A model generated the notes under the pieces. That model did no database searches and was not told the DNA's origin. It worked only from the letters and a program-made list of their open reading frames with translations. A stretch of DNA of 64,000 bases, taken from Sipunculus nudus. Lineage: Eukaryota > Annelida > Sipuncula > Golfingiida > Sipunculidae. This document shows, one piece after another, positions 29,830-64,000 of this stretch (positions are counted from its first letter, which is position 1; the number at the start of each line of letters is the position of its first letter). The stretch is from positions 96,396,624-96,460,623 of the forward strand of contig CM049308.1 in the NCBI GenBank assembly GCA_026874595.1, in the 5' to 3' direction. A program made the translations under genes and the position numbers.

Positions 29830-29958
29830 ATGTCAAGACTAATGGCTGATTTGGAGCGCAAAAATCCTTCAGCTGCTAAGAAGAGGCGTGAGCAAAACCG
29901 AGAAGCAGCAGCACGATGTCGTAACAAGAAAAAAGAGCATGAGACTGACCTGAGAAAG
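29830..29958 (+). CDS. bZIP transcription factor, basic-region exon (ATF3/JDP2/Fos-like)
   Basis: The exon runs from the acceptor TTTACAG (29825) to the donor GAGAAAG|GTATAT (29958/29959) and encodes 43 residues from ATG 29830. The basic region is residues 17-36, with the bZIP signature N23-x7-R31 and the block AAARCRNKKKE (26-36), including the Cys conserved in Fos, Jun and ATF3. Leu41 is the first zipper leucine. The basic region grips DNA (TGACGTCA or TGACTCA sites) in the nucleus once the zipper dimerises. The junction is phase 0 and joins the 32626 exon: heptads then fall at 41, 48, 55, 62, 69 and 76 without a gap. ATG 29830 has A at -3; an upstream coding exon cannot be excluded, and a second ATG follows at residue 5. 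The encoded total would be 307 residues, somewhat longer than ATF3 and JDP2. Confidence 0.85.
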
Positions 29959-30101
29959 GTATATGATGTTAGCTGCCTTGAGAAAGATATATGTAGATAG
30001 TTGAAGTGCCCAGAGAAAGGTATGTGAAGTTAGATGCCCTTAGAGAGGTTTGTGTAGTTGGATGCCCTTAGAGAGGTATGTGTAGTTGGATGCCCTTAGA
30101 G
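29959..30101 (+). repeat. Minisatellite built from the bZIP donor site (proximal part)
   Basis: Right after the true donor, units of about 30-36 bp repeat the exon end and splice site, GAGAAAG|GTATATG becoming GAGAAAGATATATG, GAGAAAGGTATGTG, GAGAGGTTTGTG and GAGAGGTATGTG. Units are joined by AGTTGGATGCCCTTA. The decoy at 30020 (AAAG|GTATGT) is a better match to the donor consensus than the true one (AAAG|GTATAT). The array is interrupted by a hAT-like element at 30102 and resumes at 31463. Confidence 0.8.
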
Positions 30102-31462
30102 CAGGGTTGGGGTAATTGTAATGTGTAATTGTAATTACCTATAATTAATTGACAGTTGTCTGTCTGCCTGTCAGGTTTTCGTTTCTGTGCGATAACTTTC
30201 CTAAATATTATCCAATTTCATCCAAATTTGAGTCAGTGATTGCTCTCATGCATTCCTTGTTTTGGGATTGGTTTTGGAGTGTCTGGCTTCTGTCTGTCTG
30301 TCTGTCACTTTGTCTGTCAATCTGTCAGGTTTTCGTTTCTGTAGGATAACTTTCCTAAATATTATCTGATTTCATTCAAATTTTGGTCAGACATTGCTCT
30401 CAGGCAAACCTTGGTTGGGATTAGTTTTGGAGTGTCTGGCTTCTGTCTGTCTGTCTGTCTGTCACGTTGTCTGTCCATCCGTCAGGTTTTCGATTCTGTA
30501 GGATAACTTTCCTAAATATTATCTGATTTCATTCAAATTTTGGTCAGACATTGCTCTCAGGCAAACCTTGGTTGGGATTAGTTTTGGAGTGTCTGGCTTT
30601 TGTGTGTCTGTCTGTCACTTTGTCTGTCCTGCTGTCAGGTTTTTGTTTCCCTGCTATAACATTCCTAAATGTTATCTGATGTCATTCAAATTTTGGCCAG
30701 TGATTGCTTTCATGCTTTCCTTGGTTTGGATTTGTTTTGAGGTGTCTAGCTAATGTCTGTCTGTCTGTCACTTTGTCTCTCTGTCGGTTTGTCAGGTTTT
30801 CATTTCTGTAGGATAACTTTCCTAAACATTATCTGATTTCATTCAAAATTCAGTAGGATTACTGTATAGGATGAAGGTAGTCGATAAAAGGTTTTTCCAT
30901 CATCAGAGGTTTGAACCAACAATTATTTACACATGGGCTCTAATTGGCACATGCCAGGGTTATCAAGAAGCAAGAAATTTTGTCTGATAAAGGAAAATAT
31001 GTGATAAAAGAATATTAGATGAAATTTTTTGCCCTTTTTTTACTTCAAGATAATATGTTTAAAATATAATTTACCCATATGTGCTTTCACTTAAGATGTT
31101 TCTATTTCGTGTCAAAAAATAATTCAGCAAATGTTTCAATACACACAATGTCCATATATGATGATGACAGCCAGTTTTGCCTTTCCATAAGAGAAAATTG
31201 TAGATGATATGTGCAGTTTTTCCTTTTATAAGTTTAATCCATTGGCTTTTCTACCATGAATGATACTTTACCTGAACCATGTCTCTGTATATTATAATTT
31301 TTATAAAGTAATTGAAAGTAATTAAATACTTTTCAAATGTAATTGTAATTTAATCATTACTTTGTAAAAATAAAGTAAGTTGTAACTGTAATTGTGAATG
31401 GGGCTTTTGGAAGTAATTGTAATTGTAATGATTACTTTCCAATGTAATTGGCCCCTACCCTG
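30102..31462. mobile_element. hAT-like non-autonomous transposon in the bZIP intron
   Basis: The ends CAGGGTTGGGG and (inverted) CAGGGTAGGGG are typical hAT termini. The 8-bp duplication is CCTTAGAG (30094-30101) against CCTTTGAG (31463-31470), and both halves are part of the donor-derived minisatellite. The element therefore landed in an existing array. TAATTGTAATTAC-type subterminal words occur at both sides. The interior is mainly a 156-bp tandem repeat; no transposase. Confidence 0.8.
30165..30860. repeat. ~156-bp tandem repeat inside the hAT-like element
   Basis: About 4.5 units start at GTCAGGTTTTCGTTTCTG, contain ATAACTTTCCTAAATATTAT and TTCATTCAAATTTTGG, and end in (GTCT)n. Markers recur at about 30174, 30329, 30486, 30641 and 30796. 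Confidence 0.85.
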
Positions 31463-31710
31463 CCTTTGAGAGGTGTGTGTATTTGGATGCCCTTACTGAG
31501 AGAGGTATGTATAGTTAGAGTGCCTGGAAAAGAGATGTACAGTTAGAGTGCCCAGAGAAAGATATGTGAAGTAAGATGCCCTAAGAGAGGTGTGTGTAGT
31601 GAGAGTGCCTAGAGAAAGGGATGTGTAATTACAGTGTCTCTAGAAAGATGTGTAATTAGAATGTCCTGAGAAAGGTATGTGCAGTTAGAGTGCCCTGAGG
31701 TATTTAAGCA
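31463..31710 (+). repeat. Minisatellite built from the bZIP donor site (distal part)
   Basis: At least seven further units carry GAGAAAG- or GAGAGG-type exon ends joined to GTATGT, GTGTGT or GATGTG, linked by AGTTAGAGTGCCC. The last good decoy donor is at 31675 (GAGAAAG|GTATGT). The unit phrases match the proximal part on the other side of the hAT-like insertion. Confidence 0.8.
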
Positions 31711-32199
31711 GGGACTTCATGCACAGGATGTTTTATTGTTGGGCTGATGTAGGAGTGTATAATAGCAGGCAGTTGGGAACATTCTCTCTGACACATTTTC
31801 TTTATGGTTCAAGTTGTCTTTAATATAATTTGTTGACAGTTGAATAAATTTAAAATCAGTACCAAAGGTTTTCATGTTAAGTCTACATTATTTGATCAGA
31901 ACATTACAATTTTCAATTGCATATAATCTGCCATTTAATTCATCATAATTCATTGTGTGGCCATGTTATACAAGAGAAAGCCACCTAGTACTATTAGTAG
32001 TTTACCAGCTAATCATAAATAGATACTACAGGCTTACAGCCAGTATTCTAAATAAGACACACCAAAATGTATATTTGAGTGTTGTAGGATTGTTTTTGCT
32101 AGTGTTGTAAATGTACTGTTCACCCTTCCACTTGTAAATACTTAACCTAGATCATATTGTGATAAGCAAACCTTGAGAATTGTGTGATTGAGTTTGTAC
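31711..32199 (+). other. bZIP intron, unique part
   Basis: AT-rich intron sequence between the donor-derived and acceptor-derived arrays. I see no exon, transposon end or tandem repeat. Confidence 0.5.
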
Positions 32200-32625
32200 C
32201 TCTGGTGTCCCTGGTCTGGATCTTGTTCTTATTCTACATAACTTTTTTTTCAAAAGAACCACCAGCTGTAGGACTCTTGTTCTTATTCTACATTCCTTTT
32301 TTCAAAGAAAACACCAGCTGTAGGACTCGTGTACTTATCATACCTTACTTTTTTCCTGAAGAATCACCAGCTGTGGGAATCCTGTATTTATCATACCTTA
32401 CTTTTTTCCAGAAGAGCCACCAGCTGTAGGACTCCTGTATTTATCATACCTTACTTTTTTCCAGAAGAGCCACCAGCTGTAGGACTCCTGTACTTATCAT
32501 ACATTACTTTTTTTCCTGAAGAATCACCAGCTGTAGGAATCCTGTTCTTATCATACCTTACTTTTTCCAGAAGAACCACTAGCTGTAGGACTCGTGTGCT
32601 TACTTTTTAAACTTTTTTTTTTCAG
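32200..32625 (+). repeat. Minisatellite built from the bZIP acceptor site (decoy 3' splice sites)
   Basis: Seven units of about 54 bp precede the true acceptor. Each carries a pyrimidine tract, an AG-like boundary, and a copy of the first exon bases, AAGAACCACCAGCTG. Boundaries are at about 32254, 32305, 32360, 32412, 32465, 32519 and 32571; the true one is 32626. CCAG|AAG is intact at 32412, 32465 and 32571, while two copies have CCTG|AAG and cannot serve. In the exon CAG follows CAGCTG's CTG; in nearly all decoy units TAG follows, so use of a decoy gives a stop five to six codons later. Confidence 0.85.
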
Positions 32626-33420
32626 AAGAACCACCAGCTGCAGACAGAGATCACAGAGAGGAAGAACAGAATCCGACACATTTCCAGACAAAAGAAAGAT
32701 TTGTTAGACCTCCTGACCTATCATTTTGAAACATGTCCCTTCACCACCAGAGATCAAATCGCTGCTTTGAGAGGGTTCAAAGAGGGTGGAAACAAGGAGA
32801 ATGAAGTTGTGGTGTCTGCTCTTGTAACAGCCCCCACTGAGGAAGGAGTCTGTTGTCCTGTGAGAGCTGAGGACAGTCCAAGTGAACAGTGCACACTTGT
32901 CAATCAAATGTTACACATGAAATCAAATAAAAAAGAATGGGTCAACTTTAATACTGAGGCAGAATCTGAAGAAGCAACTGCAAATCTCAACAATGAACTC
33001 CAGTACAGAGATCAACAGGGTTGTGTTGATAGAGGAGTGACAGAAAACATTGTCCTAAGCAAAGAACCTGAAGGCTGTGCCCCACAGTCTCCCCCAGAAA
33101 CAGGCGCCGAGTCCGACGGCAGTAAACCCAGGAGATACCGATTACTGTATATACCCGACAAGAACGAACTGGTTGTGATTGACCAGTGTTTACTTGATGG
33201 TTCACCAGGTGTTCTAGGCAGCACAGCAAGAGAAACAGAAGTCAAAAGTACCAGTGCATCAGTGACACCCAGCAACAGTCAGCCAGTGGCGCCCCCTGTA
33301 GCATTGCACACTACTATGGTTGCTCCCCAAGATGCATCTTCTGGGCAGAGGCAGGATCCAATGCTGACAACGATGGATTTTGGAATTGACATTATGAGAA
33401 ATATGGCTGGCAGTGCATAA
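32626..33420 (+). CDS. bZIP transcription factor, zipper and C-terminal exon
   Basis: The acceptor is a T-rich tract ending TTTCAG at 32625. The exon encodes 264 residues and stops at TAA 33418-33420. The first 33 residues complete the zipper: Leu48, Arg55, Ile62, Leu69 and His76 in the numbering from ATG 29830. His76 then Cys80 (LTYHFETC) corresponds to the LNLHRPTC type end of the ATF3 and Fos zippers, which supports that subfamily. Arg at the third heptad position is unusual and may restrict homodimers. The remaining ~225 residues are acidic, Ser/Thr- and Pro-rich with no known domain: a likely transactivation or regulatory region, including KPRRYRLLYIPDKNELVVID (about 183-202), which is the most ordered-looking part. 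Codon use is balanced, and the frame is long and clean next to repeats. Orthology to ATF3, JDP2 or Fos is not resolved. Confidence 0.9.
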   Translation, partial: KNHQLQTEITERKNRIRHISRQKKDLLDLLTYHFETCPFTTRDQIAALRGFKEGGNKENEVVVSALVTAPTEEGVCCPVRAEDSPSEQCTLVNQMLHMKSNKKEWVNFNTEAESEEATANLNNELQYRDQQGCVDRGVTENIVLSKEPEGCAPQSPPETGAESDGSKPRRYRLLYIPDKNELVVIDQCLLDGSPGVLGSTARETEVKSTSASVTPSNSQPVAPPVALHTTMVAPQDASSGQRQDPMLTTMDFGIDIMRNMAGSA

Positions 33421-33930
33421 GTACCATCATGTAAATAAGCCGTGCCTTGTGTTTGTCTAACATCAGTCACCTCACTTGTATTATACCATTGCATTTATAT
33501 CTATTTATATTTACACAGATGTTGTTAAGGACATCATTAACAAAGATGGTCTTAAATGAGCTGGAAATCAGCAGAGAGGACCAACACATCCGGAAATGCT
33601 GTCAAGAATAAGTTAAAGCTAACATGGTATAGGTACACTAGTACACATTAACTGATCTTCATATACATGAGTCTGACTGAGACGAGCATGTTCTACAACA
33701 CATACATATTCACATCACCATCATAAACATAGTCATAATTTTTCCATAAAACTCTGTGTAATATCCAGAATTTACTGTGTTTTTTTTAAAAATAAATAGG
33801 AATAAATTTGAGATTTTCTTGTTTCTTTCCATGTAACGTCAGCTGAATTCACTCATGCTCACTCTCTAAAAGCCGTATGAACTATATGTATATATACATG
33901 TATATTTAGTACAATGACGAGGTATTTTAT
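33421..33930 (+). other. bZIP 3' untranslated region and polyadenylation signals
   Basis: Two AATAAA hexamers lie at 33791-33796 and 33801-33806, about 375 bp after the stop, followed by a T-rich stretch. They are the best candidates for the 3' end. The rest is AT-rich non-coding sequence up to the start of a family X repeat at 33932. Confidence 0.6.
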
Positions 33931-35740
33931 TGGCGAACCTGTGAGCTTATGCGATGGTATGGCGTCGTCCGGCGTCTGTCGTCTGCACATTAACCCATAC
34001 TATCTTGAAAACGGCAAGGGTTAGCATCACAAAATTTTAAGCAAAAAATTAGTCATCTAAAAAATACTATAGAATATTATTTTTTGGCTAATTGCATTTT
34101 CTTAGATTTTTTAGGGGAAAAGCAAAAAAAACTTAAGAAATCTTCTTCTCCAAACTTCAGCCAAATTGTCCAATATTTCACAAAAATTATTTTTGGAACA
34201 ATCTCTCTCAAGTTTGTTCAAATGGTTTAAGTTCAGTGATTTTAGGCCGAGTTACAGGAAGTTGAACTTAGTCATCTGTCCAAAAAAAAGCATACTAAAA
34301 TTACAATCTTAGAAAAGGCTGGAGCTATCATCAAATTTTTTGCCAATGTTGGTCACATGAGTCATATCTGAAATTGAGATATTATTGGCGCCACCTGCAT
34401 CAGCTTTTATTGTACAGGGGTCATCAGTGCCCGTATCATACTGACAGTTACAAAAAACTTCTTCTCTGAAACCATGTGGCCAAATTGTTTAATATCGCAC
34501 AGAAATGTTCTAGGGTAGTGCATTCTGAAGTTTGTTCAATTGGTCTCAGTTCAGTGACTTGCTGCTGAGTTATGGGAAGCTGAATTTAGTCATATTCCAT
34601 AACAGCCTATTTTAGCTCAGTGGCTACAAAGATCTCAAAAACCACTGGGCCAGATTCTTAAATCTCACACATTAATTATCCATAGATGTTGATTATTCAA
34701 GTTTGTTCAAATGGTTTTGGTTCAGTGATTTTTGGCCGAGTTAGCCAATTTGCTATATTTTCCCATATGGGTTATAAACCTGCAAAACGTTTTTTGACAG
34801 GCGCCACTGAGGCCAATTCGTTTAATATTTTACAAGAATATTCCCCTGAATAAATCTTATAATAATTGCCTTTTTGGTTCCAAAGAATGAATTTTGGCTG
34901 AATTATAAAGATTGAATTGAGTCATTTTACCATATATGTTAGCTGTGTGAAGCAGGTACATCTAGCCTGGCACCAGTCTCAGCATCTGTTACATCATGCC
35001 TCTAGACATTTAGATTTCAGGTTATCTATGGTTATTATTGACAAGAATGTTTTTAAAAGCTTTTAAAAAATGTAGATTTATGATTTTAGATATTCCTCAT
35101 GCCAGGCAATGTTTACAATCACAGGTATACAGCTCTCTGTGGGTATATAAAGATGGCTGTACATGGATTATTAGCTCAGCTTACTGTAAGTCAACTGAGG
35201 TATAAGAATGGCGCTTTGTCTGTCGTCCGTCCGGCCGTCCGTTAGCAGGGCACAAATCGTAACTACTGGTCCTAGAAATTTCTTAGTGAAAATCCAAGGA
35301 GGTCAATTAACAATCTCCTTGGAAACCTGAAATTAGGTCACTGTGACCTATATCCTCTGAGCTATGGGGCTTGAAAGTACCCCCAGAATAATAAAAAATA
35401 TAATACAAAACCTCCAATGTCTTGATAATTAATGTATGGATTGTCATGAATCTTGCCTTGAATATTGACCATTACTAGTTTTGTCAGTTCCCGAAAAGTG
35501 GTGGCGCCACCTGTATTTTTTGTTATTTTAACAAATATTTTTCAATTTTTTTACTATAAAATGACAACAATCATGTCAGTTTCTCAGCTGTAATTACATC
35601 TAGTGTCCCAAAACCTTGCGTGTTTATTGATCACAAGTGGATTCCATACAGTTATCACCCTGTCTGTCTGTCTGTTTGTCTCTCCGTCTGTCCATCTGTC
35701 CATCCACACAAATTTGTTTCCAGATGATTACTCAAGGTTA

Positions 35741-38169
35741 TATTAGCTCAGCTGACTTTCAGTCATGCTGGGCTATAGCGATGGGTCTTTGTCCGTCGTC
35801 CTTCCGTCTGTCCGTCCGGCCGGCTGTCCGGCCGGCCGTCCGTTAGCAGGGCTCAAATCGTAACCGTAGGGGCTAGGGCCATGAACCCTATGCAGTCTTA
35901 GAGGTTATTAAAAGATCTCCTTGCAAACCTGAAATTAGGTCACTGCGACCTATATTCTCGAAGTTATGGGGTGTGTTTGCACCCCCCAGAAATAACTCTT
36001 TGAGACAAAATTTTCATCCCAAACCTTCCATCTTTCACATACAGCTCACCCACCAACAGGGGAAGAACCATAATTTTTTTAGGTCAAAGGTCAAGGTCAC
36101 AGGAGCCTCTTCTTTGAAAAGCCTGTGGATGCATTTTAAGCCGACCCTTTCATCTCAATTCTTTGATTTTTCACATATAGCTCACCTGCTAAGTTGGAGA
36201 AGAATCCTATAGATTTTGAGGTCACAAGGTCAAAGGTCAGGGTCACAGGACCCACTTCTTTGAAAAGGTTGTGGACACATTTCAAGCTAGACTTTTCATT
36301 CCAAACCTTCCAGCACTGATATCGCTTCTCTGCCAACAGGGGAAAAGACCTGTTGATTTTGAGGTCAAAGGTCAAGTTCACAGCACCCACTTCTTGCGTG
36401 GAGTCATTTTCAGGCCAACATTTCAATCTGTACCTTCAATCTGTCATATATGGCTTACCTACCAATAAGGGAAGAAGCCTATTGATGTTGAGGTCAAAAA
36501 GTCAAAGGTCAAGGTCACAATATTTAATTGTTCTAAATGCTTGTGAGCATATTTAAAGTGTAACTGTTCAACCCAAACCTTCAGTCTTTCACATATGCCA
36601 CATCTATGCATCACTCAGTTTGACTCAAACTTCATATTTATGGGTCTTTTTGCTTGAATAAATAACTTATTGATTTTGGGGTCAGCAGGTTAAAGGTTGC
36701 AGGTCAAAGTTATTCACCCATTGGTTGCCAAGTAATTACACCAGATTTAAGTGGTTAGTAGTTACCCATCATTTAGAAAGAATCCATTTGATATATGGGC
36801 AAAAGGCCAAGGTCATAGGTCAGGGATGTTCACAATTACTTATTTTATAGACCATCTCTATTTTTCTTGTATATATAACCATCCCACTCCAGCTGGTACA
36901 TCTCCCTGTGTGGCTGTAATTGTGAGTGACACTGGTGACATATGACTCCCTTTTGTATCAGCCTATTAAGTGATAAGGCTCAGTGATAAGTACCTCGTTA
37001 CTTCATAACAAAAACACTGTTGTCAGAATGCTTCAGCCAGGCATTAAGACTATGAGAGTATAGTATTAAGGTTTAGCTACTGATTTATAAGATGATGGGA
37101 ACATTTTGCAGTTTATTTTATTGAATCCTAGCAATAAACTTAGTTTCCTAGATATCTGAATATTTTAATATATATCACAACATATAAAAGCAAGTGTTTG
37201 TTCTCATAATATGTGGATGTGTACCTTGATTTAGGATGGCATTTTGTTTTATTTCAAGACTCTTAGTCATGCTTTCTGCATTTCTTTTCTTTCAGGTTTG
37301 GCAGTTTACCTACCCTGCTGACCCCATTGAAAAGCAGAGTGATAATAAAAAATATTGGACTTACACTTTTTACAATTGCATATCTATAAATCTGATATGA
37401 GGGCCTGGACATGCCTTTTGAATTATTTTGGGCATTCATTACTGGATAATTTGCCCAAGTTTGGTCTCTTATTGGAGAATGTGGGATATCAAATGTCATA
37501 CTTGTCAGAAATCCATAATGTCTGCCAGTTAGCCACCTTAGAAATTCTTTCTTCAGTGCAGTTTCAGTAATTTTTCTTTAATGTTTGGTCCGATTTAGAG
37601 AATGTTTGTTGTCTGATTTCAGACTTGTCAGAAGTCCAATATGGCCACCAGGCAACCATCTTTTAATTCCTTTTGATCATATTATCTCAAGAACAGTTAA
37701 AGTGAATGCAGTTGGATGTATATTTATGTAATCTTGAAAAGGATTGGGTCAAATATTTCTGAATAAATATTACCATCATTTATAAAAGTGCAGTACAGTT
37801 GGCTTGTATTGAATAAATATTCATACAGAAGCACCTGTTTCTCAATAATTCTTGCATGTATTTCCTTGATTTTTGCTATATATTTTGATCTTATATTTTA
37901 CCTTTGTGGTGTTCCTTTGAGACTGACAGGTTTCAAGCAAGCTGTTGGAATAGTTCCTGATAGCTTAACAATCATGCATTTTCCTCAGACTATCAATTCA
38001 CTGTGTTTTAACCAGACATAGGTGATATATATGTCTGTTGTCATATAAAATTTTCAACAAATTGGCAAATTGGTTCTTCAAAATTTGACTGGAAGTTGTG
38101 AATCTCAGTCCATGATGTCACAGGTCATGCTTGGCAGCTGAGCGTCATGACCCATGGGTCACTTGTTGA
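35741..38169 (+). mobile_element. 'GCTCAGC' family repeat inserted into its own family
   Basis: It starts TTAGCTCAGCTGACTTTCAG and ends CAGCTGAGCGTCATGACCCA then TGGGTCACTTGTT. It is collinear and highly similar with the copy at 8688-11118, including the half-site modules, the TATATAA region near 36870 and the long 3' part with CAAATTGGCAAATTGGTTCT. The interrupted outer module reads on smoothly across the insertion. Confidence 0.75.
36070..36520 (+). promoter_or_regulatory. Nuclear-receptor half-site array (second copy)
   Basis: Four modules carry AGGTCA direct repeats, for example at 36082-36102, 36219-36245, 36362-36376 and 36490-36512. They correspond one to one to those at 9010-9460. 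DR1 and DR0 spacings dominate. Confidence 0.5.
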
Positions 38170-38229
38170 CACATGGATTTCAAACTTGACTTACCTATGG
38201 CCCACTACTAAAGAAAGATACTAAATGAT

Positions 38230-45289: not shown

Positions 45290-47215
45290 ATCAAACTCTG
45301 GGGAAGTTTGATGTATTGGACTGATATTTTGACCTGTCTGTGCGTCTTTGATGGTATTCTCATTTACAAGACAGGTGGTGCCACCTACATTGACTTTTGC
45401 AGTGTATGCGCCTTCTAATTTCTACAGAGGAATTTGATACATCAGCCTAAAATTTGGCATGTTTATACATATCGGGTAGCATTATAGTGTACAAGACTGG
45501 TGGCGCCACCTACAATAATTTTTGCACAGTGTATGTCCCTGCTTTTTTCACAGGAGGGGTTTGACATATCAGTCTGACATTGGGCATATGTATATATCTC
45601 TTCGTTGTATATAAGACTGGTGGTGCCAGCTACAATCATTGTATCCGCCAAAACAGAGTTTTGCAGATACTATGTTTTCAGTCGAACGCCGACGCTTCCG
45701 CCATGGCCCCATAGGTTTCCGGAGAACTCCTCCATAACCACTGGGCAGAATTTTTTAAAATTCGGAATTATGATCGGTCACATGTGAACTGCGGCGCCCT
45801 CATTTTTGGTTGACCTCTGACCTTTCTTCTCTGCCCAGCGTCCATTTGTGTGTCTGTTTCCACGCATAAACCCACATATCTCGGGAACCGTTAGGCTAAA
45901 GATTTTGCACAAATGTAGCCCTTGGAAAGCTTTATAACATACACTAAAAATGGTGGCGCAACCTGCAACGATTTTTGCACAGCGTCCATCTGTTCATCTG
46001 CCGTGGGATAAAAACACTCATATCTCTGCATTGGTTGGACTTATCCACCTGAAATTTTGCATGTGTATACATCCTGGACATATTTCTTGATTTTATGATA
46101 GGTGGCGCCACCTACATTTACGTTTAAGCTGCAGACATCCAAGCTCCTATCTCGGGAACCATTTGTCCAGTTGGGCCAAAATTTTGCATGTGTATAGATC
46201 TCCCATAGCTCTTTATCATACGCAAAACTGGTGGTGCCACCTTCAACCATTTTTGCACAGTGTCCATCTGTTCATCTGCCTTGGGATAAAATCACTCATA
46301 TCTCGGCAGTGGTTTGACATATCTGCCTAAAATTTTGCAGGTTTATACATCTTGGACAGCTTTCTCGATTTTATGACAGGTGGCACCACCTACATTCACG
46401 TTTACTCTGCAGACATCCAAGCTCATATCTCGGGAACCGTTTGACCGATTGGGCCAAAATTTTGCATTTGTATAGATCTCACATAGCTCTTCATCATAGG
46501 CAAAACTGGTGGCACCACCTGCAACCATGTATGCACAGCGTCCATCTGTTCATCTGCCTTGGGATAAAATCACTCATATCTCAGCAGTGGTTTGACTTTT
46601 CCACCTGAAATTTTGCAGGTTTATACATCCTGGACAGCTCTCTTGATTTTATGACAGGTGGCGCCACCTACATTCAGGTTTACTCTGCAGACATCCAAGC
46701 TCATATCTCGGGAACCGTTTGACCGATTGGGCCAAAAGTTTGCATGTGTATAGATCTCACATAGCTCTTCATCATAGGCAAAACTGGTAGCGATACCTGC
46801 AACTACTTATGCACAGTGTCCATCTGTTCATCTGTCTTTGGATAAAATTACTCATATCTCAGAAGTGGTTTGACTTATCCACCTGAAATTTTGCAGGTTT
46901 ATACATCCTGGACAAGTTTCTCGATTTATGACAGGTGGCGCCACCTACATTTACGTTTACTCTGCAGACATCCAAGCTCATATCTCGGGAACCGTTTGAC
47001 CGATTGGGCCAAAATTTTGCTTGTGTATAGATCTCACATAGCTCTTCATCATAGACAAAACTGGTGGCGACACCTGCAACCACTTATGCACAGCGTCCAT
47101 CTGTTCATCTGCCTTGGGATAAACTCACTCATATCTCAGCAGTGGTTTGACTTATTCACCTGAAATTTTGCAGGTTTATACATCCTGAACAATTTTCTCG
47201 ATTTTATAAGAGCCG
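45290..47215 (+). repeat. Array of ~140-190-bp modules with central GGTGGCGCCACC palindromes
   Basis: Modules share CTCATATCTCGGGAACCGTT, GGGCCAAAATTTTGCATGTG, TATAGATCTCACATAGCTCT, then AAAACTGGTGGCGCCACCTG and GCACAGCGTCCATCTGTTCA. The exact palindrome occurs at 45499, 46101, 46657 and 46934, with one-base variants in most other modules. Similar modules lie at 8400-8687, 11118-11180, 41870-42290 and 50140-51130. Confidence 0.75.
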
Positions 47216-47776: not shown

Positions 47777-47777
47777 T

Positions 47778-50253: not shown

Positions 50254-50283
50254 TTTTTTTTTTTTTTGGGGGGGGGGGGGGGG
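50254..50283. repeat. T14-G16 homopolymer junction
   Basis: T14 (50254-50267) is followed directly by G16 (50268-50283), replacing the usual CAATAATTTTTGCACAGTGT part of a family X module. It could form a G-quadruplex or reflect assembly error. Confidence 0.85.
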
Positions 50284-52850: not shown

Positions 52851-53560
52851 AAAATGCATTAAATATAGAAAAAATACAGGTGGCGCCACCAATCGTCTGG
52901 AACTGAAGAAACAAGTCATAATCAATAAACATACCAGGTTTCGGGACACTAGATGGAAGCACAGCTGAGTTATGACATGATTGCTGTCATTTGACGGTCT
53001 CAAAAAATGGCAAATTCACCAACGAGTTCGAAAAGCAGTGACCTCGACCGCCATCTTCAATGTCGTATCAACCGAAATAATGAAGTGTTGCATATTTTTC
53101 TTCTCAAATGTTGTACACCTATTGTTCCAACAAAATTCTTTGATGTGTATGAAACTGGTAACCATGACCTTGACCTCAAGGTCAAATCTGTGGAAATATA
53201 GTTTTTATGTGACCTCCCCCCCCCCCCCCCCCCATAATGTTTGAATATTTCATACATATTTTTCCTTCATTTGATACACTTTTAGTTTCAACCAACCTAG
53301 GACGAGTCAGAAAACTAATGACCTTGATCTTAACTTTCAAGGTCAAATTTGCGTAAATATAGGATCATTTAGAACCCCATAACTCTTGACGTACTGCATA
53401 TGTTCCTGTCAAATATGATACACAATTTGATATTTTTCTCCAGTGAAGTTGTCCGGCAAATTTGAAAAGGTGTGACCTTGATCTCTATCTTAAAGATCTG
53501 CGGAAATGCAGAATTTGGTAACCTTATTAGTTTGAAGTACTGTCTATTTGACCATTCTTG
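52851..53560 (-). repeat. Diverged modular repeat, minus strand, with palindrome and AGGTCA palindromes
   Basis: GGTGGCGCCACC lies at 52879-52890. TGACCTTGACCTCAAGGTCA (53166-53185) contains an inverted AGGTCA-type pair, and a weaker TGACCTTGATCTT / CAAGGTCAAAT pair is at 53320-53347. Three modules of ~150-170 bp resemble those at 15253-15925 read backwards. C18 lies at 53216-53233. No coding sequence. Confidence 0.5.
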
Positions 53561-55503
53561 GTTAATATTTTCACTAAAATTAACTCAAGAATAATTCTTC
53601 TTATTGCCCTCGGTGGTTCCGCTTGATTATTTCTTGGCTGAATTAAAGGACGCTGAACTTGGTCATTTTACCTTATTTGTTAGCTATGTGCAGCTGTAAC
53701 ATCTGATATTGCAGGAATATATCTACATTATTACACCATTCTAAGAAATATTTGGATTTTCAGGAATACCTGGTTAATAGTTACCACATTTTCTAGAACA
53801 AAAAGTTCTTATAATGATAGAACTGTAAGACATGAATAGTAAATGATTTTGGGGTCGGTGCCGGATTAAGGCAAATGGAGGCCCTGATATACTAACCCAG
53901 TTGGGCCCCCTCTGATCATGAAAAAATGTGACTCTGGTCCTGCACTGGTCTTATGTTTAAACATTTTTTTTCGCTAAAAACTTATGAAATAAATAAATGA
54001 AAATTTTTAATTTTGTTAATATGAAGCAAAGGCCCCAATAGAATGTGAGACCATTTGCTGTGGCCCGCTCAGTTCATTTGTTTTTGTGGCTCTTCGAGGG
54101 AACGTGAGGCTGACTGTCCAGGCAGTAAAAAATAATTGGTGACCATACCTAAGTTATGTATATGTAGAGGTACGTTTATTTCATGAAAAAGACGTGTCTG
54201 TATTAGGATTTTACATTCATTTGGCAATACCTCTTATTCATAATTTGTTGATAAAAATGTGAATAAAATACCAAATTAAAAGACGCGTAAAAATTAGTGT
54301 AAAGCACTGTACTTTTCCGTAGACCAGACATTAATATTCCACGATTTTCACTTTTTCAGGCTTTCGGTAGGGTTTAGGATATTCCATATACTCTCAATAG
54401 ATACCCCCTCCCCCAAAACTATAAGTGGACTCACCCATTCACAGCCAGTGGGTCAGAGAGGGGATCGTATCACTTGATTAGCTAGCGGGCCTCGGGTGCA
54501 ACCAACCCTCCATATTTTTTGTAAAGCGTACACCCCTTGCATGCCCTCCATATCTTTAGTAACGCCTACACCCTATGCATTGACTGGCAGTATACTGTTT
54601 TGGCATAATACTAATAAGCATTCTAAATTCGGGCAGACCTTTCAGCCATTTAGTGATGTTAAATTAAATTCCTATGTTGTTTTACATTTTCTGTGGTAAA
54701 AATCTTACATGGGTACGTTCGATTTCCGCGGGTCTCGTCATACAGTGAACCATACAGAGTATATCCTTTATTGTATTTATTATTTAATGCTTGTGAAATC
54801 TCTACAGTTTAAGGAGTCCGGGAACATCGAACGAGCGGAAGTTCTTGTTCATCATTGGCAGATCATATAAAGGTCTCATATTTTCCAAATATCAATTTGT
54901 GATATACGACAAACATAAACGTCTCTGTTTATTTTATCAATATGATATCCAACCTTTGCCTTGCGCCGCAGCAGTCAGTGATGATGTTTATAAGACGCCA
55001 GTGAGGATAAATATATGTAGTTTAAACGAATGTTCACCAAGGTTATATTTTCGCGATGATTTCCCTTTCGCAAATAACGCGAATTTGACAACGTCGCAAT
55101 ATCCTTAGTAAAACAATTACCTCTTCGCGGTCGCGGATAACATAACAAGGCCCACTCAAACCCAAAGCTATGTAGGATGCGGCAATCCCAGAAGCTTGAG
55201 TTCAGATATACACTATTAATATCAGAAAGTGAGGATGAATTGAATATACTTATGTATTTTAAGTTTAAAAAACTATGAGGAACTATGAGGAATTTGCACA
55301 TGCGATTTCAAATGAGGTTTTAGCCTTTGTTTCGGAGGGTTTAAATGAAGGTTGAACGAGCTTTGTTTAAAGGTGTCCCCTATTCGGCCATTCCATGGTC
55401 TATTAATGTGTTTGGGTTATTGTATGATGATACTATGAATTTATTTATTCAGTTACATTATTTACGATACATGTATACAATATATACCGCATATCACAGT
55501 ACA

Positions 55504-55508
<5 letters not shown>
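53561..55508. other. Unassigned region
   Basis: No gene I can support. The start (to about 53820) resembles the end of a family X-like module (compare 44380-44640). A degenerate repeat with GTGCCGGATTAAGGCAAATG starts near 53857. CpG-bearing TTCGCG words cluster at 55047-55135. Two opposed open frames (54845-55108 on +, 54975-55301 on -) are not recognised. Confidence 0.45.

Positions 55509-55544
<36 letters not shown>
55509..55544. repeat. (AT)n microsatellite
   Basis: Eighteen AT dinucleotides, next to AT-rich sequence at the 3' side of a minus-strand retrotransposon fragment. Confidence 0.95.
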
Positions 55545-55548
<4 letters not shown>

Positions 55549-55639
55549 GTACATGAGGAATTCGAAAATATTACAAAATAAGTAAAATAACTAAATAAAT
55601 AAAAATATATATCACAATACATATCAAACAATATCTAAA

Positions 55640-56790
55640 TAAAATATATAAATCACATTACATCAATTGAGCACCATGCAACATTGTACCTGTAAACAAA
55701 ATGAAAATGGAGCACTAAAAAGTCTTCCCAATAAAAGACTTATTTCCATTGTTGACTTCACTAAGATCACAAATTACAAGACGGCGGCTGCACCTGGTTT
55801 CTTCACAACAGCTAAGAACCATCACGTCAACCCAAAAGTCAGCAATAACCTTCCTAAAATTATTTAAATAGTGTATACACAATTTTCTTTTGAAAACGTT
55901 TCTACTATTTTCTGTTTTGATGGCCAGTGGTAGATCATTCCACAGTTTAACACTCCAGTTTTTAAAAGTCTTACAGCCTTGTGTTTTAACATCTAGAACA
56001 TTAAATGATAAATTAGACTTTAGAGTTCTGTAATTATGACTAACAGGAACTATATCACACAAATAAGAAGGTGCTTCATTATGATGAATATTGAACATGA
56101 GGTTTAGAGTTAGATAGTCTACTCTATGCGAGACATCAAGCCATTTTATCTTTTTAAATTCTGAAACTCTTAAATGCTGTCTAGGAGTATAATTAAAGAA
56201 TTATCGAATAATCTTGTTTTGAGCTGTGTAACCTATTCTTAAGTTTCTTAAAGAGTCCTCTGTACCAAGAATTACAGGCATAATCAAAGTTTGAATGTAG
56301 CAAGGCTGAGCATAACATTGTCTTTTCTTTGATGCCCAGGTACATAAGGCTATACCTTTCCTATAAAGAAATTTAGCATTAACTTTACTAAATATTGATG
56401 TACCCATAGTAAAACCTGACATGTTTTGGTCCAAATTGACCCCTTAATACTTTACAGTTTCCTTGGGTTTAGCCATATACTAAGAGATTCTAATTCTACT
56501 GACAACACATTTTCGATTTTCATTGGATCCGGTCCGCTAACCACTAGTGCAGAATCATCAGCATAAAGGAAAAGTTCACTGCACATTTGGTAGCTTATAT
56601 CATATCATATAGAAAAAAGAAGAGAGCCTAAAAGTGATCCCTGAGGAACCTCACAAGTAACTTTGACTAAAAAAGACTTTGCTGCATTATTACCTAAATC
56701 AACAAATTGTTTTCTGTTTGAGAGATACGATTTAAACCAAGAAACAGATTGTTCATTAAGACTAATTGCATTCAACTTTGTACAAAACAG
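55640..56790 (-). pseudogene. Non-LTR retrotransposon reverse transcriptase, minus strand, 5'-truncated
   Basis: Reading from 56790 downwards: SWFKSYLSNRKQFVDLGNNA, then VPQGSLLGSLLF, YADDSALVVSG (the catalytic YADD box, about 56570-56540), NMSGFTMGTSIF, LYRKGIALCT, LRNLRIGYTAQNKIIR, and finally IHHNEAPSYLCDIVPVSHNY, NVLDVKTQGCKTFKNWSVKL and WNDLPLAIKTENSRNVFKRK. These are RT motifs B to thumb and the C-terminal WN.LP..IK block in the expected order. Frameshifts break it into several frames. The 3' untranslated part is AT-rich and runs towards 55545. The 5' end is cut at 56790 next to a G-tract. Its thumb and C-terminus differ from those of the + strand element at 4935-16655, so it is another family. 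Confidence 0.85.
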
Positions 56791-56816
56791 GAGATAGCTA
56801 AATGGACCAAGGACAT

Positions 56817-56834
56817 GGGGGGGGGGGGGGGGGG
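56817..56834. repeat. G18 tract
   Basis: A run of 18 G at the truncated 5' side of the minus-strand retrotransposon. Confidence 0.9.
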
Positions 56835-57472
56835 AAGTAAATGTATTTATTGATATTTGGCAGTTAAAATTGCACCTTACAACACAAGTAGGCCTAATGG
56901 TTAAGATAAGATAACTTGAGGTAAGTTTTATTTAAAGTCGGTTTTCTATGGTCAACAAATACAACATAAGCTCACAGAGCTTTTGTCACCGACTACATAC
57001 ATAAGACATGTTATGATAACTAATACATTTGGTATGGTTTTTACACATTTCACTGTAGTATCAGTTCATCATTCATGTGCATAGAATGGTGATACTGATT
57101 TTAAAATAACAGTACAATCATAAAATGATCAAAAGATTGCGATCCAGTTAAAATAGTATACTGGAATAATAAAACCACTGGGGTGTGATAAAGATTAAAA
57201 ATGATTAAGACAATACTTTATACAGAATCTTTTTAAATGTATTGAGTTCTGATCAGGTCATGAGTTCTTCAGGCAGAGAGTTTCACTCTTTCACACCTTG
57301 CAATGATGTTAAAGGGTCATGATACCCCATATTTCTGCGTTTTTATGCTGTAGTAGAAGTTTGTTTTCACTATTTCTTAAATTATAATGTCTATTTGTTT
57401 TGCATAGTCATTCATTTAGATACACGGGGACTTAAAGATATCTTCAATACAATGTTAACAGGCCCGTAGGCT
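56835..57472. other. Unassigned spacer
   Basis: AT-rich sequence with no gene, tandem repeat or transposon end that I recognise. Confidence 0.5.
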
Positions 57473-57519
57473 GGGGGGGGGGGGGGGGGGGGGGACGAAC
57501 CCCCCCCCCCCCCCCCCCC
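57473..57519. repeat. G22-ACGAA-C20 perfect hairpin
   Basis: G22 (57473-57494), a five-base loop ACGAA, then C20 (57500-57519): a potential 20-bp G:C stem. Such a structure is hard to clone and sequence. Confidence 0.9.
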
Positions 57520-59635
57520 GCTGAGCATCTGAGTTCCACCTGACGAATACTAATATGCTATAATCTAGAAAAATTATACAGAACTTTATGTTTAACCATT
57601 TTTGTCCGGTTCCATGCATATCCTCACAGGGAGAGACCATATTTCTGTATAAATATTGTTTATAGCGCCGATAAGCGTCCTCTTTATTTAGCTCTGTCAG
57701 GGATGTAGATTGCAAGTACAGTTCAAAACGTTTAATTTCACCTGAAACAAGCTTTAAATAACCTGTTCACTGCTTGCTTCTGATTATGGTCAAGAACTGG
57801 ATGTTTGTTGCCGTGTGAGAGGGGATAAAGAGAAAATTGTTGATTGCCCCCTCTCATGCAAAGAGGGCAGTAGCACCCTCTTAATTGTTTCCGGGCCAAA
57901 GGTCTATAAGAACACTCTGTCAATAGAGCACAGGAGACATACGTGTCAAGAGTCCAAACCAAGCTTGATTCCATAAGAATAATAAATAAAGGGGAAAAAA
58001 CAAACAAAACATTAAAAATATCATATAGAGATTTATAAATGAGCTTATAGAACTTTTTGATTTGTTGGTGTTGCAGATTAAATGAGGGCCTTGCATATTA
58101 CTTCGTTACTTCAGAAGATATATATGGCTATGACCCACTGTCTGTAGTCGTCCTATCAGCAGTTTGTCTGCACGTTAGATAAGCATGATTTTACATCGTT
58201 ACCTATGGATTTGAAATTTTACATACAGTATGATGTATCAAGTTCTATACCAAGCCGGAAACTAGGTCACTGTGCTTTGTTCCTATGGAAAATTAAACTA
58301 AACCAGTTTGCATTCAAAATCTATTATAACAATTCAAGACTGCCTTATATAAAAAAAGCTTGTATTGTTCTAATTAAGGCACAGAGCTTTTCATTAAATG
58401 TCCGATGTATATGAGGAAAATCATGCCAGTATTGAGTAATTAAAAAAATAAGGGCTGGATCATGTGTTTAGTCGAGAATATTTTTACTCAATGAATATGT
58501 TAACCGCTTAAGCTGGAGCTCAGTTCATCCAGAAAATAACTACAATTAATTTAGATTGAAGTATACACCGGAGATAAGGTCGGAAATTCAATGAATTTTC
58601 GAAGTAATCAACAAATGTAAAATCACTACCATGAATTTTACCTATACTTTGACTATCGCATATTGTTTTCTTGTAATCACTGCTGATTTAATTTTCAAAT
58701 ACCATGACTACATGGATTTATAAGCTATTTGTTCTGAAATTCTAATGCAGTTACCCAAAACAATTAGTCAGGTATGGGAGTTTTCAGGGGGGTAAGACTA
58801 TATTATTTATGAGTAATATAAATCAGGGAACAGGCCACCTCCACAGGATGGCGATTTGGTAAAGATATTTGGCGAAGTGTGCACGTGTGCCCCTTGCCTG
58901 TAGGGACTGATGAATGACATAATTTTCATTTAATATGGCTAATATTAACATGGATTTCATTGACCAAGTCTCTATAAGTTACTTTGATCGTTTATTTTGT
59001 CAGTTTTTAGGCTATATACATTCTAAATTGTTCAGTCTACACATCTACACATTTTGTTTTTATTCGGACCTCGCAGAAATGCCCCGGATCTTAATTGATC
59101 CCCTAAAGTTCCAGCTCCGGCCCAGTTCTGTCCTATATACTGCTTCGTTTGTCAAAGAATTTGAATATAATTCTAGCAGCCTTGCCTGCTAGTCCTTTTT
59201 TTTTAATTTTTGCAAATTTCAAGTATAGCTAGAAACCCCAAACATCGCCCGGTTCATTTCTTTCCAAGAATGTTAATTTACACGTTATCTGCATTGAATG
59301 ATATCAATTCAAGCAACCTCATTTAACTTTCAGTTAACGTGATAGTAACTCGAGTGGACAGCTACCGGAGAATATCAGATGATGGAGGTGTGAGTTTGTC
59401 AATGAATATGGTTGTTTTCTTCTTTTCAAATCTGAAATGAAGTGGATGCCAATGCACTTTTTTGTTTAGTGTACACATATATACAGCCTCTTTATGACCA
59501 TGCATACTTGTTCTGTAGTAGCAGCTTGCGAAACGCTTTGGATGGGACGTTCTGAGTACACACGGCGAGAAAAAGGACAATTCGCTGATAATAGGTTATT
59601 TGGATTGTTTTTATTTCGTTAAAAGAAAACATCGG
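57520..59635. other. Unassigned region
   Basis: No gene recognised. Open frames at 57738-58007 (-), 58205-58414 (+), 58935-59192 (+) and 59362-59580 (-) have no features of a known family and no clear splice context. Confidence 0.45.
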
Positions 59636-59674
59636 GTATATATATGTACATATATATATATATATATATATATA
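59636..59674. repeat. (TA)n microsatellite
   Basis: Imperfect TA repeat broken by GTACA. Confidence 0.9.
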
Positions 59675-59864
59675 AAGTTTCCACCATCAGTGAAAACGAA
59701 CCCTCCCACTCAGCAGTCAGCCTACGGGCCTGGTTAAGGTTGCACAAATATAACTTCTTTTTCAGTACAATGATCTTCCGCAGTCTCGTCTGGTAGTCAA
59801 GTGCGTCAACAGGCTGGAAATTTTGAGTTTGCCGCATTGAACGGTTTGGCGATTTCGTGTAAGT

Positions 59865-59874
59865 GTCACGTGAC
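59865..59874. promoter_or_regulatory. GTCACGTGAC palindromic E-box
   Basis: This 10-bp palindrome is identical to the CLEAR-box consensus bound by MITF/TFE-type bHLH-ZIP factors. It lies about 115 bp upstream of a TATA-box-like sequence and in the expected direction for the KLHL exon 2.6 kb further on. Functional binding is inference. Confidence 0.35.
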
Positions 59875-59979
59875 TAAGCACCATGGACGGTGTCGGTAAC
59901 TGTGTCACTGGCTACAAGAGTTGGCTATGAAATCAAAAGCAGGTATCAGTAAATTTCCCCGGCCGACTAAGTAGAGGTG

Positions 59980-59990
59980 TATATATAAAA
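59980..59990 (+). promoter_or_regulatory. Candidate TATA box, possible KLHL promoter
   Basis: GTATATATAAAA is a strong TATA-box match. About 30 bp downstream is GTTGTACTAACAGACAGAG|GTATGT, offering an initiation zone and a donor site near 60027. The first acceptor with a coding exon on this strand is at 62476. A link between the two is plausible, unproven. Confidence 0.35.
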
Positions 59991-60026
59991 CCATTCTTTC
60001 CTTTGGTGTTGTACTAACAGACAGAG

Positions 60027-61739
60027 GTATGTGAGAGATCCTCGAAGGGTGACGTAGATTCGTCCTTTGTGATGTTGTACTGTAGTCTGTGGACTATCAA
60101 GTCACTGCCACTCGCCGTGGATACAGTGGCGAGGCCGGGACAGAGGGGGAGGTGTCAGTGGGCAGCTATAATCTGTCGGCAGAGTGTTATATAATATAGC
60201 TAACTGTTGTATTTGAGTTTGTTTGCCAGGAGAGTATCACAGATGTCCTTGGGGTACTTTGAAATATGTTAATCAGAACTTTAAGTTTAACTTAGTTTAA
60301 GTTAATCCCTGGTGCCTGTCAAGCATCATCTATACTATTTACCTCCAAAATGAATCCTCTAATAAAGTAACTTTATTTTGCATGAATTCTTACATCTGGT
60401 GATGAGGTTCAAAGAAAAAGTAATTCTCCATGACAAAACTGTGAGTTTGCCTGATTATCAGTTAAATTAATTTAAATGATGATAAATTTGTATAATCTTA
60501 ACAAGGTGTCTAGAGCTCCGTACCCAGACACATTGCCCCAGAGCTAAAGGTCCTGACTATTAATCACGTAGTTAAGTGATGAGCTATAAAGTATAAGTTC
60601 ATACATACATCAGCATTATGAGTAATACCCTGTGAAAATTATGGATAACTTTAAAGTTATAGGCCTGTATGCAATTAGAAATGTATTAATAAAGCCCATT
60701 ATATTAATCATTTTTCATCCTAACATGTTGAACTAGGAGTAGGACTAATTATATTTTCATTAAAATCATATATGGACTAGACTTCATCTCAGACCTATAA
60801 ACAATGAACATATATTTATAAAGGTATTTTGTTTTAATATTAATTTGTGAGTACATGGGTCTGTGTATTCTCCCAGAAAGTCCTACATAAAGTGCTTTTA
60901 TTAAATAAAATAAAATTCATATTTATTACTAAATGCCAGAACAATAGCAATGTTCTGGTAGGTCCGTCAGTTGGTGCTGGAGAAATAGCTCCAATAGATG
61001 TGTCCGGCAGTGTCAGTGCGCATGGCTCATAGGAAGTGTCTGAACTTTAGCCTGTATGATCAGTATCTGGGTCTTATCTTTATCAGCCTTATCTTTATTT
61101 TCTACTATTCCTCTGAACCAAAATATTTAGGTAAAAATAAAATTGTAAAGCAATAGCCAATACAAATGAAACAAGAAAATCACATTTTACTCCCATTTTC
61201 CACTCAATGTCCATTAATTTGCTACTCCTTTTTGACAGTGACACGATATTGTGGCTCCGCAATGCACAAGGCCCCATGTGCTGTGTTTATGTTGACACCT
61301 GTGATTGCCAGGGCAGTATTTTGGCAGGTACAGATTTATTTTAAAGGGAAAAAGCCATTTTTCATGTTAATTCAACATGCTTTATAGGTGATTGGGCCCC
61401 TTTAACATATTTTAACTACAAAGCAGTATATTTAATAATCTTAAATTTTGTATTGTAAATGCATGTACATTTATCGGTTACAGTATATAAGCATTTTCTT
61501 TCTTTTCTCTATTTCTTTCTCTTCCTTCTTTCTTTCACTCTTTCTTTCTCTCTCATGCTGTCTCTCTTTCTGTCTCATAAGCTGCAGTAAATCAGTAATC
61601 ACCACATACCACATGCCTCGCTTTAAAAATCAGTGTGAAACACAATCATAGACTTTATTGGAAATTTATTTAGAAATTGTTGATTGTTTGATTTTTAGGT
61701 ATCTGTATATCATCAAACTTGGAAGCGGGAGGGGAATGT
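60027..61739 (+). other. Probable first intron of the KLHL gene or intergenic DNA
   Basis: No coding exon recognised. A pyrimidine-rich tract of CTTT and TTTC words occupies 61491-61575. Confidence 0.4.
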
Positions 61740-62148
61740 AAATTATTGTATGAAGAAGGCCCAAGTGCGGCTGTACTTTTTAATGAGTCTTTACGGGTTA
61801 GGTAGGTGCTGCTGAAATAATATAGAGCAGTTATAGAGAGTGTCTTGACACGTTCTGTCACTGTGTGGGGAGGAAGCATCAGTGCTGAGGAATGGAATTT
61901 ACTGGATTTACCAAGTTATTCAAAAAGGACTTTAACCAGCATATACTTATCAGCAATCCGGTAACTAAACTCATCCCTTGCGGAAAAACATATCTTTAGA
62001 TGACTATCTTTTGTATACAATTTTATGAATTTATTTTCTTCTTTCAATGTATTCTTTAACAGCAAACTAATCAAGACATATACTATTGTATGTAATATTT
62101 TTATTATGTAATAATATGTATATATAGCAAATCTTATCTTATCATGTC
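61740..62148 (+). pseudogene. Non-LTR retrotransposon 3' fragment (RT thumb to tail)
   Basis: The frame reads KKAQVRLYFLMSLYGLGRCC and, after a shift, AVIESVLTRSVTVWGGSIS. This is the KKAQ.RL.FLR.L....I....Y..VIESVLT.SITVW.G block of L2-like elements common in animals. The 3' part ends in ATCTTATCTTATC at 62148, a typical tail. Only about 400 bp remain, in the region before the KLHL exon. Confidence 0.75.
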
Positions 62149-62527
62149 AATCAGTTTATCATGTAAATAACATAGATACCCCATCCATTAAAATGGTATG
62201 CTCCCCTTAGAAGTTACTCTATCAGATGTGTGGGTTTCTCTGTCATTTTCCTCTGCTATCCAACCTGTAAAACGGACGCGTAATTGTTTTTCACAGTATT
62301 TACAAAAAGGTGGACAGATATTTTGTTTACATAATATCATTTTGTTTTTCAGTAACAACTTCATTTATAAAACTGACAATAAATTGGAAATTCAATGACA
62401 AACAAGGGAATTATTTAAAAGCTATTTCTTTTGTGCAAAGCAGGCATGCACTATGACTGTATTTTGTTTATTTCAGATCATTTAATTTTGTTTTCGATTT
62501 ACTTGGTGGTCCATCATTGAGGTGTAA

Positions 62528-62708
62528 ATGTACCAGGTAAACGGAACAAAGCGTGTGCGAACCAGCTCCAACATGTCCGACACAGAGGATGGACCATCCA
62601 AGTTAATCCATGTGGATGAAAACACGGACCATGGCATGAAAGTGCTGCGGGGGCTGAACCAGCTCATGCGTGATAAAGTGCTCTGTGATGTCACGTTAAT
62701 CGCTGAAG
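62528..62708 (+). CDS. KLHL-type BTB protein, first coding exon (partial gene)
   Basis: The exon runs from the acceptor TTTCAG (62476) to the donor GCTGAAG|GTAGGG (62708/62709). ATG 62528 follows an in-frame TAA directly; ATG 62573 (residue 16) has the better context (A at -3) and may be the true start. Residues 37-60, including MKVLRGLNQLMRDKVLCDVT, match the start of the BTB domain of KLHL proteins: helix 1, then the strand LCDVTLIAEG. In that family the text continues REF.AHR.VLAA.S.YF; this does not follow in the genomic sequence, so the next exon should supply it (phase 1, splitting a Gly codon). KLHL proteins are substrate adaptors of cullin-3 ubiquitin ligases; the BTB domain binds CUL3 and dimerises. 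BACK and Kelch parts are not in the window. An isolated, non-functional copy is also possible. Confidence 0.7.
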
Positions 62709-63440
62709 GTAGGGAACTTCATCAGGTGTTTGTTCATAATAAGGTGATCTGTGATGTCACATTAATTGCTGGAGGTAAGGAACTTCATCAGAAGTTTGTT
62801 CATAATAAGGTGATCTGTGATGTCACATTAATTGCTGGAGGTAGGGAACTTCATCAGAAGTTTGTTCATAATAAGGTGATCTGTGATGTCACATTAATTG
62901 CTGGAGGTAGGGAACTTCATCAGAGGTTTGTTCATAATAAGGTGATCTGTGATGTCACATTAATTGCTGGAGGTAGGGAACTTCATCAGAAGTTTGTTCA
63001 TAATAAGATGATCTGTGATGTCACATTAATTGCTGGAGGTAGGGAACTTCATCAGAAGTTTGTTCATAATAAGGTGATCTGTGATGTCACATTAATTGCT
63101 GGAGGTAGGGAACTTCATCAGAAGTTTGTTCATAATAAGGTGATCTGTGATGTCACATTAATTGCTGGAGGTAGGGAACTTCATCAGAAGTTTGTTCATA
63201 AAAAGGTGATCTTTGATGTCACATTAATTGCTGGAGGTAGGGAACTTCATCAGAAGTTTGTTCATAATAAGGTGCTCTCTGATATCACATTAATTGCTGG
63301 AGGTAGGAAACTATATAAGAAATTCTTTTGTGCACTGATGTCTCATTAATTGTCAGAGGTAGGCAACTTGATTAGTTGTATGTGCTAAAGTTATTTGGGA
63401 TGTCAATGTCATATTAATTACTGAAGGTTGGCAGCTATCA
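62709..63440 (+). repeat. 66-bp minisatellite built from the KLHL donor site, in frame
   Basis: The last 34 exon bases plus 32 intron bases are repeated with an exact 66-bp period (unit starts 62675, 62741, 62807, 62873, 62939, 63005, 63071, 63137, 63203, 63269). Decayed copies follow to about 63440. Each unit has TGTGATGTCACATTAATTGC, then TGGAG|GTAGGG, so nine decoy donors follow the true one (62775, 62841 and so on to 63303). The decoy at 62775 reads GAG|GTAAGG, nearer to consensus than the true donor. Because 66 is 22 codons, an open frame continues to 63349 and would add KVICDVTLIAGG repeats if a decoy were used. Confidence 0.9.
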
Positions 63441-63928: not shown

Positions 63929-63929
63929 T

Positions 63930-64000
63930 TTTAGCTGAGCTGACTATGAGTCATCTGAGCTATAGTCGTGGTCCATTGTCCTCCGTCCGTCCGTCTGTCC
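63930..64000 (+). mobile_element. 'GCTCAGC' family repeat, 5' end, cut by window edge
   Basis: TTTTTAGCTGAGCTGACTAT, then GAGCTATAGTCGTGGTCCAT and CCGTCCGTCCGTCTGTCC, match the 5' end of the copies at 8688, 35171, 35741 and 47778. Confidence 0.65.

Follow-up and report, generated by a model that had tools for sequence, protein, structure and literature searches.

Minisatellites spanning exon-intron boundaries in the genome of Sipunculus nudus

Genes and exon-intron boundaries in the window

The analyzed stretch of DNA, referred to as the window, comprises 64,000 nucleotides of Sipunculus nudus contig CM049308.1 (C3:96396624-96460623) and lies about 1.5 Mb from the end of this 97,945,123-base contig, in an assembly of 1,426,538,692 bases and 153 contigs. 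It contains a bZIP gene and the first exon of a KLHL gene (Table 1), and the tandem arrays found at their exon-intron boundaries are the subject of this study. The preliminary description of the window had pointed to a parallel in amphioxus genes, and such arrays are indeed in print as amphioxus 'mirages' (PMC3087553, PMC3902484).

The two bZIP exons join in phase 0 at K/K, and alignments of the joined product with FOS and FosB chains are gapless across the junction. The KLHL gene continues beyond the window, where exon 2 starts at L004:5031 (window coordinate 67031) and is joined in phase 1. The joined KLHL exons matched the Pfam BTB profile over positions 1-107, and the alignment with a ZBTB17/BCL6 chain showed no gap at the junction. 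Another KLHL donor, CAG/GTGTTT after 62725 and thus 17 bases downstream of 62708, was favored at first, as BTB matches in PDB and Pfam extended past 62708 through 'GREL'. It was dropped when exon 2 was found and the donor after 62708 gave a BTB domain that is gapless at the junction. Altogether, the homology of the sequences supports the proposed bZIP donor, bZIP acceptor and KLHL donor well and makes them credible as junctions.

Table 1. Exons, junction-spanning arrays and the insert in the window, and positive junctions of the myosin and kinesin sample (TRF, Tandem Repeats Finder)
Feature	Location	Strand	Remarks
bZIP exon, ATG to donor	29830..29958	+	basic region and zipper start; translation, Pfam bZIP_2, gapless FOS match of joined product
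bZIP donor array, first block	29949..30109	+	TRF; 28-bp units with an exon end of about 10 bases (CCTGAGAAAG), GT and the beginning of the intron; authentic donor in the first unit
1361-bp insert splitting the bZIP donor array	30102..31462	.	inverted ends CAGGGTTGGGG / CAGGGTAGGGG (reverse complement), 10/11 bases matching
bZIP donor array, second block past the insert	31463..31699	+	TRF 31496-31699; copies 31463 to 31665; final copy retains CCTGAGAAAG followed by GTATGTG
bZIP acceptor array	32240..32640	+	TRF 32244-32640; 53-bp units that combine the pyrimidine tract and (C)AG with the start of the exon, AAGAACCACCAGCTG; authentic acceptor in the last unit
bZIP second exon	32626..33420	+	remainder of zipper and stop codon
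KLHL exon 1, ATG to donor GAAG/GTAGGG	62528..62708	+	phase 1; joined with exon 2 at L004:5031
KLHL donor array	62673..63442	+	TRF 62673-63312; 66-bp units of 36 exon bases, GT and intron start
L027 acceptor			82-bp unit; sample positive
L031 donor			61- and 35-bp units, 35-bp copies identical; sample positive
L038 donor			86-bp unit; sample positive
L040 acceptor			61-bp unit; TRF array stops at 308, junction at 393, linked by unit content

Arrays at the boundaries of the bZIP and KLHL genes

Tandem Repeats Finder, the overlap of arrays with junctions and the alignment of copies all confirmed that the three junctions (29958, 32626, 62708) lie at the edges of arrays whose units contain the exon end, the splice site and some intron. 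At the bZIP donor, the 10 exon bases up to 29958 fall within the array, and 11 extra copies were found at an identity of at least 60%, those of the first block at 29977, 30010, 30038 and 30066. Since only about 10 exon bases are shared and the 30-nt exon-only test gave a score of 18, near control level (control maximum 18), the case of this donor rests on TRF and the alignment of copies. The array is split by a 1361-bp insert and is consequently older than the insert. The flanks of the insert, CCTTAGAG (30094-30101) and CCTTTGAG (31463-31470), are identical in 7 of 8 bases; its terminal inverted pair was not listed by a repeat search at a minimum length of 14. The insert reads like a DNA transposon of the hAT type.

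At the bZIP acceptor, the array includes the 15 exon bases following 32625. Seven extra copies reach at least 60% identity, three of them with AG, and the 30-nt exon end scored 31 compared to a control maximum of 23. At the KLHL donor, the 36 exon bases up to 62708 belong to the array; this donor has 11 extra copies at the same identity and an exon-end score of 40 against a control maximum of 18. Here the middle copies are nearly identical and the end copies diverged, with decayed copies at 63283, 63339 and 63407. The array is open in frame for nine copies, all of which (9/9) carry GT, and the first extra copy has GTAAGG.

The claim that all well-placed boundaries carry such arrays holds for these three, while two further junctions are without spanning copies, so that spanning arrays are present at 3 of the 5 junctions placed in the two genes. 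For the KLHL acceptor (L004:5031), the intron holds no copy of the exon start; the best score, 20, was also attained in 110 of 200 shuffles. For the acceptor at 29826, a consensus site only, the scores of three probes were reached by 152, 78 and 4 of 200 shuffles; the last, an exon-only probe, is marginal, and as its match is distant and covers 11 bases, it was scored as negative.

Junctions in an unselected sample

A comparison of junctions with control positions was carried out in 26 exon-dense stretches (89,625 bases) chosen from exon matches to myosin (75 matches, with 65 out of 198 candidates scored) and to kinesin (126 matches, with 122 out of 225 scored). The stretches were picked on exon density before arrays were examined, except that L032 was chosen also for its odd matches; none of its 10 junctions was positive. 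Of the 19 kinesin stretches first listed, 17 were taken. In total, 166 junctions (84 acceptors, 82 donors) were placed manually, guided by profile matches and the splice consensus. Several sites are uncertain, namely a donor of the GC type in L029, the first acceptor in L032 and the last donor in L039. Unplaceable exon ends were omitted; these include the first acceptor in L038 and, in L024, L040 and L043, the last donor. The test compares the 30-nt exon end with the intron at a cut-off score of 28, a value fixed once the data had been inspected. Mirages with a small exon share, such as that of the bZIP donor, would escape this test; TRF overlap in 23 stretches revealed no additional case of this type. 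The scores of 18, 31 and 40 given above and their control maxima originate from an earlier version of the test with 74 junctions, the window included.

At four of the 166 sample junctions (2.4%), from two myosin and two kinesin loci, the neighboring intron contains copies of the exon end. As a control for chance, exon ends were compared with the introns of other loci; of these 2928 comparisons, a fraction of 0.0003 reached the cut-off. Together with the window, this amounts to seven junctions in six genes on different contigs, which bears out the expectation that the pattern is general in this genome and affects both types of splice site, with four donors (bZIP, KLHL, L031, L038) and three acceptors (bZIP, L027, L040). 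The TRF arrays of L024, L033, L034, L039 and L049 span no known junction.

Two observations were made beside the junction counts. In L049 (1793-2222), 17-bp units of the TCTACAGACC type form an array just upstream of a kinesin exon; every unit contains TACAG, which resembles an acceptor, but the array is not exon-derived. The myosin matches at C2:44849337-44852248, seemingly an array of exons, were read instead as four alternative versions of one exon: L032 (C2:44848200-44852700) contains four successive versions of a muscle-myosin exon (Myosin_head profile about 109-153) that read as mutually exclusive.

Copies and the consequences of their use

In the junction arrays the units hold exon bases, splice site and intron, and the array extends into the intron. 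The authentic site is the copy adjoining the exon, and since this copy leads directly into conserved coding sequence, the array originates from the exon. The adjoining exons are intact, as the bZIP and KLHL matches are gapless and the myosin and kinesin exons are open and conserved. Among the units of the seven mirages, none had a match better than E 0.05 elsewhere in the sequence examined, where for the three window units hits in the window, L001, L002 and L004 are outside the listing.

The splice core dinucleotide is retained in 35 of the 47 extra copies with at least 60% identity, of which at least one (L031:1584) is probably a chance match. Identities to the authentic site range from 0.61 to 1.00, and the loss of the core among the copies looks neutral. 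According to the sequences, splicing at the extra copies would in most cases introduce a stop codon or shift the frame: a stop would follow at 39 bases in 7 of the 8 listed copies of the bZIP donor, at 9 or 15 bases in 6 of 7 copies of the bZIP acceptor, and at 3 bases in the L031 copies. None of the unit lengths 28, 53, 82, 61/35, 86 and 61 is divisible by three, the KLHL unit of 66 bases being the exception.

Further repeats around the two genes

Two giant arrays were found by TRF upstream of the bZIP gene, one with 36-bp units and about 151 copies (17177-22669) and one with 64-bp units and about 66 copies (23720-27958). The KLHL intron contains a 42-45-bp repeat (TTTTGTGTCAGGTG...) at L004:1833-1932 (window 63833-63932) and L004:4970-5011. 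A test of the acceptor for an old mirage showed this repeat just upstream, on both sides of a long stretch, with a 41-base match and a score of 67. The last copy ends about 20 bases before the KLHL acceptor, and the stretch between the copies looks like an insertion of a mobile or other element. A 278-bp tandem unit (AAAACTGGTGGCGCCACCTGCAACC...) is arrayed twice, at 45946-47207 of the window and at L004:3138-3905. Downstream of KLHL, L005-L007 (C3:96468624-96498623) contain long tandem arrays with open frames of up to 536 codons, and arrays make up 50% of L004-L007. An open frame of 161 codons at 55718-56200 on the minus strand resembles, by eye, the end of a reverse transcriptase from a retrotransposon.

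Origin of the junction-spanning arrays

The preliminary description had proposed a process that specifically turns exon-intron boundaries into arrays. This proposal was not supported, since intronic points of the same stretches reached the score as often as junctions (489 of 20,000, also 2.4%; P 0.58). Without the four mirage arrays, the intronic rate was 1.5% (304 of 19,733; P 0.25). Compared to this, none of 414 probes in exon interiors had copies. Boundaries accordingly behave like intron; a special junction-targeting process is not needed, and while the junction-array pattern is general, it is probably not junction-specific.

The labeling of the arrays as mirages that arise from frequent tandem duplication throughout the genome, are purged in exons and are tolerated across junctions is in our view the best explanation, with a probability of roughly 70%. 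A tandem duplication in place, the unit of which happens to straddle an exon-intron boundary, would give rise to a minisatellite that subsequently expands through unequal exchange or slippage. The rate of tandem duplication would be high genome-wide, and duplications within exons would be eliminated by selection. Arrays crossing a junction would survive, as a functional splice site is retained in the exon-proximal copy and the additional copies are spliced out together with the intron. The units contain different numbers of exon bases (10, 15, 36, 26, 39 and 34), as expected for breakpoints that are not anchored to the junction. Also in favor are the abundance of arrays in the genome, where they cover 12.9% of 160 kb of background stretches, the lack of matches for the mirage units in the other sequence examined, the homogenized middle of the KLHL array and the seemingly neutral retention of splice cores.

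Several results weigh against this explanation. The first 23 stretches contain 8 TRF arrays, three of which span a junction and include 8-60 exon bases, compared to 0.8 expected (P 0.034-0.041); L040 would be a fourth by its unit content. The count of arrays shows a mild excess at junctions, the comparison with intronic points none. For the window, 3 of 5 junctions correspond to a P of 0.00013 at the sample rate. The nine myosin stretches have an array cover of 2.3% compared to 12.9% of 160 kb of background stretches, and the sample may not represent the genome. Moreover, junctions were placed by hand on the basis of sequence, and the choice of the cut-off followed an initial inspection of the data. 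The unusual density suggested for the window is accordingly seen relative to the sample, but it shrinks when the repeat content of the window itself is considered: 27% of random points lie in repeats, or 14.5% outside the two giant arrays, which changes P to 0.13 or 0.024, and P is 0.018 at the background rate. Since the window was chosen for the pattern itself, all these P values are generous. As the rate test and the array-count test are not in full agreement and the sample is small, a weak bias towards junctions is possible.

A junction-directed mutational process, in which R-loops or breaks coupled to transcription or splicing make boundary duplications preferentially, would agree with the array count, with the window P at the sample rate and with the occurrence at donors and acceptors of six genes. 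Given the equal rates of junctions and intronic points and a widely varying exon share without a fixed anchor, we regard it as unlikely that junction-directed duplication seeds arrays above the intron background; in such a case, the in-frame KLHL array may also give BTB proteins of variable length.

Retention by selection, with spare splice sites or length variation being useful for instance in splicing regulation, could explain the core dinucleotide in 35 of 47 copies and the nine in-register KLHL copies, where GT and an open frame are kept throughout and the first extra copy reads GTAAGG. It is very improbable, since most copies outside KLHL would give a stop or a frame shift, the loss of the core looks neutral, and unit lengths outside KLHL are not multiples of three. 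Equally improbable is that the KLHL array is a coding 22-residue repeat inside the exon instead of intron. One open frame from 62528 to 63346 covers exon 1 and the 66-bp units, and a version retaining one 66-base unit still gives a complete Pfam BTB match (104.1 bits compared to 98.6 for the plain join), a test that does not separate the two readings. The plain join, however, is gapless against solved BTB chains, and the decayed copies past 63346 contain stops. An assembly artefact with wrong copy numbers or invented arrays, as one amphioxus mirage was mis-assembled in a draft according to the globin paper (PMC3087553), is the least probable of all, since copies differ from the authentic site, the split of the bZIP array by the insert is likewise a sign of age, and the same kind of array occurs at six loci on different contigs.

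Comparison with known systems and significance

With the amphioxus mirages, the arrays of Sipunculus share the tandem organization, a unit spanning boundary and splice site, the occurrence at 5' and 3' boundaries and an intact adjoining exon. Amphioxus genomes are near 0.5 Gb. Amphioxus cases comprise Adh3 and the globins BflGb6 and BflGb9 (PMC3087553) as well as PGBD5 (PMC3902484), with units of 10-72 and 150-160 bp compared to 28-86 bp here. The homogenized middle and diverged end copies described there (PMC3087553) are clear for KLHL only. While splicing, somatic instability and allele lengths have been studied in amphioxus, the present arrays are known from the sequence of one assembly.

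The host differs from the cephalochordate amphioxus in a 1.43-Gb genome and a mollusc-like myosin, in line with the expectation of an independent case. Among the best 60 of 150 matches, the L032 muscle-myosin fragment reached 153 bits to 3i5f, 146.9 to 2ec6, 145.4 to 1dfk, 1dfl, 1b7t, 1kk7 and 1qvi, and 137.2 to 2os8, followed by chains named Myosin-7 with at most 134.8 bits. The eight chains named by identifier are from squid and scallop. The work of Canestro et al. 2002 is cited in connection with amphioxus mirages. All mirage cases found in print are from amphioxus; a mollusc case was not recognized by titles and abstracts, a weak negative, as subscription papers are mostly outside this coverage, and one scallop paper proved to be unrelated.

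Compared to ordinary intronic minisatellites of the same genome, the junction arrays show similar units, copy numbers and per-site rates in the sample, and their units add exon bases and a splice site. In potato, a tandem duplication across an intron-exon boundary created a new intron (PMC4974935). Both are boundary-crossing duplications, but the potato case is one duplication leading to a new intron, whereas many copies are present here. With respect to intron gain, alignments with FOS and BTB chains run through the old bZIP and KLHL junctions without a gap.

The occurrence of mirages at about one in 40 unselected junctions, at the rate of introns and in an unrelated genome, suggests that they are a by-product of frequent tandem duplication and the tolerance of splicing. 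It also implies that duplicated splice sites, proposed as raw material for intron gain (PMC3087553, PMC4974935), are in standing supply, which makes this question countable in such genomes.

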